From: Pirellulales bacterium
Lineage (GTDB): Bacteria; Planctomycetota; Planctomycetia; Pirellulales; JALHPA01
Reading direction: 5' to 3'
Assembly: GCA_033762255.1 (NCBI GenBank)
Contig: JANRLT010000021.1
Location: 1 to 64,000, forward strand
DNA length: 64,000 bases
In this document: positions 32,304-37,139 of the stretch, piece by piece
Layout of the letters: each line of letters starts with the position of its first letter
How positions within the stretch are numbered: position 1 is the stretch's first letter
Notes under the pieces: generated by a model
What the model saw: the letters and a program-made list of their open reading frames with translations, nothing else
Told to the model about the DNA's origin: nothing
Databases searched by the model: none
Made by a program: the position numbers and the translations under genes

Positions 32304-32370
32304 GAGTACTTCCTGAAAGTTTGTAATAAACTTGATCGCCAATGCCAAATTACACAATTGTTCTACACAC

Positions 32371-32685
32371 TGTAGTAGGCAGCGTCCCGCTGCCGTGCAT
32401 ATCCTGCATTTCCTACCGGGCGCGATTCCTCGCGGTAAACGTTACGGCACGGGGACCGTGCCTACTACATTCGCTTTACGTCTCGGGGACCGCACTGTAG
32501 TAGGCAGCGTCCCGCTCCCGTGCATTTCCTGCATTTCCTACAAGGCGCGATTCCTCGCGGTAAACGTTACGGCACGGGGACCGCATTGTAGTAGGCAGCG
32601 TCCCGCTGCCGTGCATATCCTGCATTTCATACCGGGCGCGATTCCTCGCGGTAAACGTTACGGCACGGGGACCGTGCCTACTACA
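32371..32685. repeat. Triplicated GTAGTAGGCAGCG palindromic repeat
   Basis: Three successive copies begin at 32371, 32496 and 32587. Each starts TGTAGTAGGCAGCGTCCCGC and contains TCCTCGCGGTAAACGTTACG then GCACGGGGACCG; copies 1 and 3 end in TGCCTACTACA, the reverse complement of the start, so each is a long imperfect palindrome. Copy 2 lacks the end. The elements separate two divergent promoters or 3' ends; two shorter fragments of the same family lie at 47262-47320. Confidence 0.85.
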
Positions 32686-32698
32686 TTCGCAACCTGAG

Positions 32699-34924: not shown

Positions 34925-35125
34925 ATGAATTCCCCTATCGAACCAGAAAATACCCCCCTGCCTCCCCATCAGCATCCTGAGCCGCCAATGACTTCTGATG
35001 CACAAATTCCGGTGGTAAATTCCGAGGAACTATTGCAAGGCCAGCGTCAGGTGGTCATTAAACATGGCGAGAGTCTTTACCGACTTTTGTTGACAAAGTC
35101 CGGCAAGCTGATTTTGCAAAAGTAA
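34925..35125 (+). CDS. hemP: Hemin uptake protein HemP
   Basis: A 66-residue protein whose last 40 residues match the HemP family: VVNSEELLQGQRQVVIKHG, then ESLYRLLLTKSGKLILQK, with the conserved Y-R-L-x-L-T-x-x-G-K-L-I-L pattern at the very end. HemP is a small protein associated with hemin uptake and, in some bacteria, with activation of the hemin receptor gene. The N-terminus here is a Pro-rich extension. The ATG at 34925 is used; an ATG at 34880 would add 15 residues and one at 34988 would leave only the conserved domain. No strong ribosome-binding site. No receptor or transporter genes for heme are adjacent. Confidence 0.8.
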   Translation: MNSPIEPENTPLPPHQHPEPPMTSDAQIPVVNSEELLQGQRQVVIKHGESLYRLLLTKSGKLILQK

Positions 35126-35361
35126 TGCAAATTTGGGTAATTTACCGTCTCATGTGAGAGCCGATTTACAAAGTGGTTTTTGTAGGCGCGCCATTTTCAA
35201 CCGTTAGACCGCAGATGTGCCGCAACTCAAACCATTCCTTTTGATGCTCATCTTGACCAGTGAACCATTTGTGACGTAGACTGTCAGAAGGTGCGATTGC
35301 CAATCGTCTCATACATAGGCAATTCCCAAAATTTCCAGAGCTACACGATAACATTTAGATC

Positions 35362-35433
35362 ATGTCTTTTTTGTCCAAGTTGCCGTTGCTACCGCTAGTG
35401 CTACTACTTAGCACCCCGGGAGCCCGCGCCTAG
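35362..35433 (+). CDS. Putative leu leader peptide
   Basis: A 23-codon open frame ending in TAG, 156 bases before leuA. It has eight Leu codons (TTG at 35371, 35380, 35386; CTA at 35389, 35395, 35401, 35404; CTT at 35407) and one Val, with LPLLPLVLLL as its centre. An intrinsic terminator follows at 35465. This is the organisation of leader-peptide attenuation, in which shortage of charged leucyl-tRNA stalls the ribosome and prevents termination. There is no clear ribosome-binding site. The peptide also looks like a signal peptide (ends ARA), so a decayed secreted gene is the alternative. Confidence 0.6.
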   Translation: MSFLSKLPLLPLVLLLSTPGARA

Positions 35434-35464
35434 TTGGACTGTGGATAATCACCTGACCAACCTG

Positions 35465-35498
35465 CCCCGTGGCTCTGCATGAGCGACGGGGTTTTTTT
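35465..35498 (+). terminator. Attenuator terminator before leuA
   Basis: CCCCGT (35465-35470) pairs with ACGGGG (35486-35491); inside, after a G-G mismatch, GCTC pairs with GAGC around TGCAT. Seven T follow (35492-35498). It lies 31 bases behind the leader peptide stop and 90 bases before leuA. A GAGCC at 35420-35424 in the leader could pair with GGCTC at 35471-35475 and so compete with the terminator. Confidence 0.8.
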
Positions 35499-35588
35499 GT
35501 TGATTCACGACGCTAACTGAGAGCATTCACAAATAACCCAATCCACCCCTTTCCCCACCTCCCCTTTTTAGTTTCCATCGAGCCACCT

Positions 35589-37139
35589 ATGTCCACCGCC
35601 GCTAGCTCCCGCCGCATCCGGATTTTTGACACCACTCTGCGAGATGGCGAGCAATCGCCCGGAGCCAGCATGAATCTGGCGGAGAAGCTGGAAATCGCGC
35701 AGGCCTTGGTCGACTTGGGTGTGGATATTATCGAGGCGGGATTTCCAATTGCCTCGCCGGGGGACTTTGAATCGGTGCGGGAGATTGCCGGCACCATTCG
35801 CGGGGCGACGATTTGTGGGTTGGCCCGCTGCAACGACAGCGATATCGACCGCGCGTGGGAAGCGCTCAAGCATGCCTCCAGCCCGCGCATCCACGTCTTT
35901 TTGGCCACCAGCGCCATCCATCGCGAGTTTAAACTCAAAATGGATAAGGACGAAATCATCCGCCGCGCGGTGGCGGGGGTTCAGCGGGCCGTTGGTTATT
36001 GCGACGATGTGGAATTCTCGCCAGAGGATGCCGCACGGACCGAGTTGGACTTTTTATGCCAAGTGGTCGAAGCCGCGATTGCCGCCGGAGCAACCACGGT
36101 CAATATTCCCGACACGGTTGGATACGCCACGCCCGCGCATTTTGGAAATGTGATCAAAAATCTCCGCCAACGCGTTCCCAATATCGACAAAGCCGTGATC
36201 AGCGTCCACTGTCATAACGACTTGGGCTTGGCCGTGGCGAATAGCCTGGCGGGGGTAGAAAATGGAGCGGGACAGATCGAATGCACGATCAACGGTATTG
36301 GCGAGCGGGCGGGAAATTGCTCGCTGGAGGAAATTGTGATGGCCCTGCGCACGCGTCACGATTATTACCAGGCCGAAACGCGCATCAACACCCAGCGGTT
36401 GGTGCCGACCAGTCGGCTGGTATCGAGCATTACCGGCTTGCAGGTTCAGCGTAACAAAGCGATTGTGGGACGCAATGCCTTTGCCCACGAGGCGGGGATT
36501 CACCAGGATGGCATGCTGAAGGAACCGCGGACGTATGAGATTATGCGGCCAGAGGATGTCGGCTTTGCCAAGACGGACCTGGTTTTGGGCAAGCATAGCG
36601 GGCGGGCGGCGTTGGCGGACCGGGCCAAGGCGCTGGGTTATCATTTGACCGCGGAGCAACTGCAAACGGTGTTTGAACAGTTCAAATTACTGGCCGATAA
36701 GAAAAAAGAGATCTACGATGGCGACATCGCCGCCCTGTGCGAGCAGCAATTCCAGACTGCGACCGACCAATGGACGCTGGAAAGCTATAAAATCATTTGT
36801 GGCAGCGACGAAAAGCCCCAGGTCACGCTCCGTTTGCGGCATGGGGTTCAGGACTTTGGCGAATCGATGGCCTGCGGCGACGGACCGGTCGATGCGATTT
36901 TCTTAGCCATCGAAAAGCTGACCGGAGTTTCCGTGGTGTGCCGCGATTTTCGCGTGCATAGCGTCACCGTGGGAAAAGACGCCCAAGGCGAAGTGAATGT
37001 CGAAGTCGAATACCAAGGGCACACTTATCGGGGTCGCGGAGTCTCGACCGATAGCGTGGAAGCGAGCGCAAAAGCGTTTTTGAACGCGATTAATAAAATC
37101 TCCATCGCTCCCGGCGATCGGCTGCATCCGCAGCGATAA
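35589..37139 (+). CDS. leuA: 2-isopropylmalate synthase
   Basis: A 516-residue enzyme that condenses acetyl-CoA with 2-oxoisovalerate, the first committed step of leucine synthesis. The TIM barrel shows FDTTLRDGEQSPG near residue 13, HCHNDLGLAVANS near 208 (metal-binding His pair), and NGIGERAGNCSLEE near 237; the C-terminal 130 residues form the leucine-binding regulatory domain, so feedback inhibition is expected. The ATG at 35589 gives the normal N-terminus, though no good ribosome-binding site is visible. The gene is preceded by a leucine-rich leader peptide and a terminator. No other leu genes follow; a GC-rich hairpin closes the unit. Confidence 0.95.
   Translation: MSTAASSRRIRIFDTTLRDGEQSPGASMNLAEKLEIAQALVDLGVDIIEAGFPIASPGDFESVREIAGTIRGATICGLARCNDSDIDRAWEALKHASSPRIHVFLATSAIHREFKLKMDKDEIIRRAVAGVQRAVGYCDDVEFSPEDAARTELDFLCQVVEAAIAAGATTVNIPDTVGYATPAHFGNVIKNLRQRVPNIDKAVISVHCHNDLGLAVANSLAGVENGAGQIECTINGIGERAGNCSLEEIVMALRTRHDYYQAETRINTQRLVPTSRLVSSITGLQVQRNKAIVGRNAFAHEAGIHQDGMLKEPRTYEIMRPEDVGFAKTDLVLGKHSGRAALADRAKALGYHLTAEQLQTVFEQFKLLADKKKEIYDGDIAALCEQQFQTATDQWTLESYKIICGSDEKPQVTLRLRHGVQDFGESMACGDGPVDAIFLAIEKLTGVSVVCRDFRVHSVTVGKDAQGEVNVEVEYQGHTYRGRGVSTDSVEASAKAFLNAINKISIAPGDRLHPQR

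Follow-up and report, generated by a model that had tools for sequence, protein, structure and literature searches.

The leuA gene in a stretch of 64,000 nucleotides (nt) from a Pirellulales bacterium (assembly GCA_033762255.1, contig JANRLT010000021.1, positions 1 to 64,000; hereafter the window, part of a 5.47-Mb genome) is most probably controlled by a classical ribosome-mediated transcription attenuator, a reading to which a probability of roughly 0.87 is assigned and whose behaviour in vivo is predicted from sequence. The element is ordinary in plan and phylogenetically new, being apparently undescribed for the phylum. The nearest relatives of this leuA also belong to Pirellulales. The following parts were recognized, in their order along the DNA:

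35253–35282, forward strand: sigma-70-type promoter, TTGACC-18-TAGACT, predicted from its consensus match and conservation in relatives, 79 nt before the leader ATG
35362–35433, forward strand: leader peptide frame MSFLSKLPLLPLVLLLSTPGARA with its stop codon, eight leucine codons including four CTA, read directly
35373–35385, forward strand: region 1, GUCCAAGUUGCCG, pairing with 35427–35439 (protector hairpin 1:2), found as an inverted repeat and in the minimum free energy (MFE) fold
35420–35439, forward strand: region 2, GAGCCCGCGCCUAGUUGGAC, which holds the leader stop codon and can form a helix with either region 1 or region 3
35457–35475, forward strand: region 3, CCAACCUGCCCCGUGGCUC, the 3' arm of the antiterminator and the ascending arm of the terminator
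35465–35498, forward strand: intrinsic terminator (3:4 hairpin) with U7, read directly and in the MFE fold, its stem covarying in relatives
35589–37139, forward strand: leuA, 2-isopropylmalate synthase, 516 aa (TIGR00973; HMGL-like, HCS_D2 and LeuA_dimer domains)

The leader frame, the translation of which is predicted, runs over 23 codons from the ATG at 35362 to the TAG at 35431–35433, and eight of the 23 are leucine codons, at positions 4, 7, 9, 10, 12, 14, 15 and 16 (TTG TTG TTG CTA CTA CTA CTA CTT). The terminator hairpin, CCCCGTGGCTC-TGCAT-GAGCGACGGGG (35465–35491), contains 10 pairs and one G-G mismatch and is followed by T7 at 35492–35498; it lies between leader and structural gene, as is expected of an attenuator. 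A simple promoter and terminator scan missed it, probably since the mismatch interrupts its stem. The product of leuA scores 732.7 bits against TIGR00973 (cut-off 598.7), which identifies it as a bacterial 2-isopropylmalate synthase and hence as an enzyme in the synthesis of leucine, the very amino acid that would be sensed. Direct reading thus bears out the preliminary description of this region, which had reported the 23-codon frame, its eight leucine codons, the seven T and leuA, except that the terminator does not follow the leader at once, as had been written, but after a gap of 31 nt. When both strands of the window were searched with one strict, uniform rule (at least five leucines in nine residues, with a terminator 10–90 nt downstream), this pair of leucine frame and terminator was the only one found.

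The conservation of the element carries most of the argument. The upstream regions of leuA from 56 related genomes and 80 named contigs gave 126 distinct regions, an attenuator being present in 83 under the strict rule and in 88, each with an equivalent leader frame, under a slightly looser one; dinucleotide shuffles and reverse complements of the same 126 regions yielded no match. The enrichment is specific to leucine, as none of the other residues among the 20 tested gave more than one case. Carriers include Lacipirellula limnantheis, Rhodopirellula maiorica, R. rubra and R. sallentina. The leaders of relatives are 16–28 codons long, usually 18–20 (mode 19), and leucine dominates the positions from −6 to −14 relative to the stop codon, while little else is kept. 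The codon CTA makes up 19 % of leucine codons in leaders as opposed to 2 % in the leuA genes and 6 % in the genes of the window, in agreement with the tendency of regulatory codons to be rare. The suggestion that the peptide might be a truncated signal peptide was rejected, since the N-termini are not conserved whereas the leucine codons are, beside a terminator and before leuA. Upstream regions of ilvB, trpE and hisG in 25 relatives (88 loci) contained no comparable element, the rules used for the other residues being rough.

The conservation of leucine codons and terminator, which the preliminary description had proposed as a check, was found across the order and also in other orders of the class. 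Among the further families of the class, the attenuator was detected in 7/7 (f21), 8/14 (f97), 6/20 (f96), 2/2 (f98) and 2/2 (f100) regions, and a leucine-rich frame was seen in 16/20 of family f96. In two representatives of other classes of the phylum (L151 and L164), leuA is preceded by a leucine-rich leader that ends in UAGGGU and by a similar terminator, a hint that the element may be older than the class.

A promoter upstream of the leader is predicted as well, and among 87 relatives the pattern TTGACN-N16..18-TANNNT precedes the leader in 74, where 0.3 would be expected; the consensus common to them is TTGACC-N17-TANANT. A transcription start downstream of 35498, named in the preliminary description as incompatible with attenuation, is disfavoured because of this conserved promoter.

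Three mutually exclusive hairpins are common to the relatives. The canonical antiterminator includes the stop codon of the leader and pairs UAGGGUUCG with CGAACCC: the stop codon runs on into GGGUUCG, which is complementary to the CGAACCC that lies at the base of the terminator, and when 69 UAG-ended leaders were aligned on the stop codon and the U-run, this register showed the largest excess of complementary bases. The 2:3 helix overlapping the stop codon averages −18.8 kcal/mol (−12.5 kcal/mol when shuffled). The terminator is U-rich, its distance from the leader stop varies little, and its stem shows compensatory changes. Region 2 can alternatively pair with region 1, located in the 5' part of the leader. 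Within-species 1:2 and 2:3 pairings exceeded cross-species ones in 10,000 of 10,000 permutations, which also supports the protector hairpin in relatives. In a simulation of the ribosome on 88 regions, with the stall placed at the most favourable leucine codon, a mean of 9.4 bases of the 5' arm of the terminator were sequestered on stalling versus 2.8 with the ribosome at the stop codon, the direction being the same in 88/88; with the stall at a fixed leucine codon the value was 8.7, compared with 5.7 in shuffles. An antiterminator that excludes the terminator and would be exposed on stalling is present in the relatives, and in the window alone it is suggestive (p 0.066).

The canonical 2:3 register is not kept in the window, where GGGUUCG/CGAACCC is replaced by a shifted helix of GUUGG (35433–35437) with CCAAC (35457–35461) and GAGCC (35420–35424) with GGCUC (35471–35475). 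The pairing of GAGCC with the ascending arm of the terminator, proposed in the preliminary description, is thus retained, although it is specific to the window and forms part of a better antiterminator to which GUUGG/CCAAC contributes. The 1:2 pairing of the window (13 nt, 77 % complementary) is weak by itself (p 0.20). With the simulated ribosome stalled at any leucine codon, nine of 12 terminator-arm bases were sequestered, as opposed to none of 12 at the stop codon, and the fold amounts to about −20.8 kcal/mol with the ribosome at codons 10–15. For region 2 of the window, its own region 3 is a better pairing partner than those of all but three of the 87 others.

From these parts we infer a transcription start before the leader, ribosome stalling, a response to leucine and the coupling of translation to transcription. 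Transcription would begin upstream of 35362, and a ribosome would translate the 23-codon leader. With ample Leu-tRNA the ribosome would reach the UAG and cover region 2, so that the 3:4 hairpin forms and ends transcription at 35498. Under a shortage of Leu-tRNA, the ribosome would stall in the leucine run, the codons of which are often rare, some 8–20 codons before the stop; region 2 would then be available to region 3, the terminator would be blocked and leuA transcribed. In an untranslated leader, 1:2 pairing would allow the terminator to form. The plan is that of the enterobacterial leu attenuator, as first proposed for this region, and is supported by conservation, by leucine specificity and by the exclusive pairings in relatives.

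Several observations weigh against this interpretation. The antiterminator of the window has diverged, its duplex beats shuffles only weakly (p 0.20), energy and arm coverage combined are no more than suggestive (p 0.066), and the terminator conformation is the more stable by approximately 11 kcal/mol, so that the antiterminator would have to win kinetically. Since the switch of the window is by itself only suggestive, conservation has to carry most of the claim, and the relatives are non-independent samples. No obvious Shine–Dalgarno sequence precedes the leader, and 37–38 of the 126 regions have no detectable attenuator, some being cut by contig ends and others belonging to a freshwater group. 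The Pirellulales without the element (L024, L031, L034, L066, L076–L079, L088, L089, L091–L094 and others) include many freshwater metagenome-assembled genomes.

These weaknesses leave some room for an ancestral attenuator that is decaying in the window genome, its leader and terminator having stayed while the 2:3 switch drifted and termination became constitutive or unregulated. The only same-family relative, L007, in which a contig end cuts the leader and the leucine-rich 3' end remains, keeps UAGGGUUCG, the stop codon and a GAACCCC terminator, and this canonical pairing is lost in the window. Nevertheless, GUUGG/CCAAC and GAGCC/GGCUC substitute for it on both sides, the good fit of region 2 to its own region 3 is retained, and eight leucine codons, four of them CTA, persist together with the promoter, which makes decay very unlikely. 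An extremely improbable alternative is that the terminator simply marks the end of a small RNA or of a transcript coming from upstream, the leucine frame being a chance or vestigial open reading frame or a truncated signal peptide. It draws on the weak antiterminator of the window and on hemP, which lies upstream:

34925–35125, forward strand: HemP, small hemin uptake protein (PF10636), identified by a domain match

However, hemP ends 340 nt upstream with the promoter in between, the chance expectation for a leucine frame with a terminator is zero, and leucine-specific conservation with rare codons is seen before leuA, whereas the regions upstream of ilvB, trpE and hisG showed none. Translation of the leader may instead act through Rho or through the translation of leuA, as is suspected for actinobacterial leuA, whose leaders have leucine runs without classical attenuation (PMC1262725); many Pirellulales also have a second short frame and a hairpin between terminator and leuA. 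That second frame is, however, absent from the window, and the strong U-rich terminator is conserved, covarying and held at a narrow distance from the leader stop, so this possibility, too, is regarded as quite remote compared with attenuation at the intrinsic terminator.

The second short frame occurs between the attenuator and leuA in 36 of the 126 regions by strict and in 43 by loose criteria, 150–350 nt before leuA (L016, L027, L007, L012, L058–L060, L062, L064, L085 and others), and was found neither in the window nor in the other orders examined. It always has an in-frame ATG and a variable, often basic N-terminus, followed by (S/T)RAxL(V/A/L)L..P with synonymous codon changes, and a strong hairpin, often GCCGACC..GGTCGGC, stands directly 3' of it, with the stop codon in the loop in several genomes. 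When one form of its codon pattern was sought in 20 genomes, it was present before leuA in four, with one further match elsewhere in one of them. In L050 the RAxLVL frame and its hairpin occur with no detectable leucine attenuator, indicating that the two elements can occur separately. Judged by its sequence, the second frame looks like a second leader peptide and is possibly an arrest peptide. Elsewhere in the window, at 32368–32690, there are three copies of a 107-nt unit, 83–98 % identical and with 26-nt inverted ends (TGTAGTAGGCA..TGCCTACTACA), which look like a small mobile or REP-like (repetitive extragenic palindromic) intergenic repeat.

In enterobacteria, leucine leader peptides precede leuA or ilv-leu. 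The attenuator of their leu operon (leuL-leuABCD; Rfam Leu_leader) shares its plan with the planctomycete element, which differs in its shorter peptide (mode 19 codons), in the position of the leader stop inside the antiterminator arm and in its phylum; the two are probably convergent or anciently diverged. Rfam covariance models at permissive thresholds found no family above chance, Leu_leader included, the only match being a non-significant one to NsiR1. The actinobacterial LEU element has in common with the window a leader peptide with a leucine run upstream of leuA, but it forms a pseudoknot, in the base stem of which the leucine run is paired with the Shine–Dalgarno sequence of leuA, and classical attenuation was judged unlikely for it (PMC1262725). 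In the window, by contrast, a U-rich intrinsic terminator stands well before leuA, and in the MFE fold the leader pairs locally, so that the element does not conform to the LEU element. In Staphylococcus aureus, a leucine-rich leader peptide attenuates branched-chain amino acid synthesis at the ilv-leu operon, alongside CodY (PMC5794164); this is a system of a Firmicute, whereas the planctomycete element precedes leuA and none was found before ilvB.

No leu attenuation in planctomycetes was found in the literature searched, although the broad comparative survey of Lopatovskaya et al. (2010; doi 10.1134/S0026893310010164) might hold a prediction. Korolev et al. treated planctomycete leader genes only with respect to reinitiation (PMC4833913), and a 2010 survey placed amino-acid leader-peptide attenuation outside Proteobacteria and Actinobacteria only in its own Firmicutes case (PMC2965389). 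Segregated transcription and translation have been claimed for Gemmata (Gottshall 2014, as cited in PMC6212462), the compartment view of planctomycetes has been disputed (PMC6554331), and Planctomycetota is not among the phyla to which a 2026 paper assigned runaway transcription (PMC13323073).

Attenuation works only if the ribosome closely trails RNA polymerase, and a class-wide, covarying leu attenuator would therefore constitute genomic evidence for coupling. It may tentatively be proposed, with the odds somewhat against the proposal as a whole, that the ancestor of the class Planctomycetia already had ribosome-mediated leucine attenuation, that translation must be coupled to transcription at leuA in the members of the class, contrary to the segregation claimed for Gemmata, and that many Pirellulales carry, in tandem with the attenuator, a second nascent-peptide element unrelated to it, maybe a new arrest peptide adjusted to the supply of leucine. 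The attenuator predicted here would extend amino-acid leader-peptide attenuation to another phylum and may serve as a simple reporter for testing transcription–translation coupling in planctomycetes.
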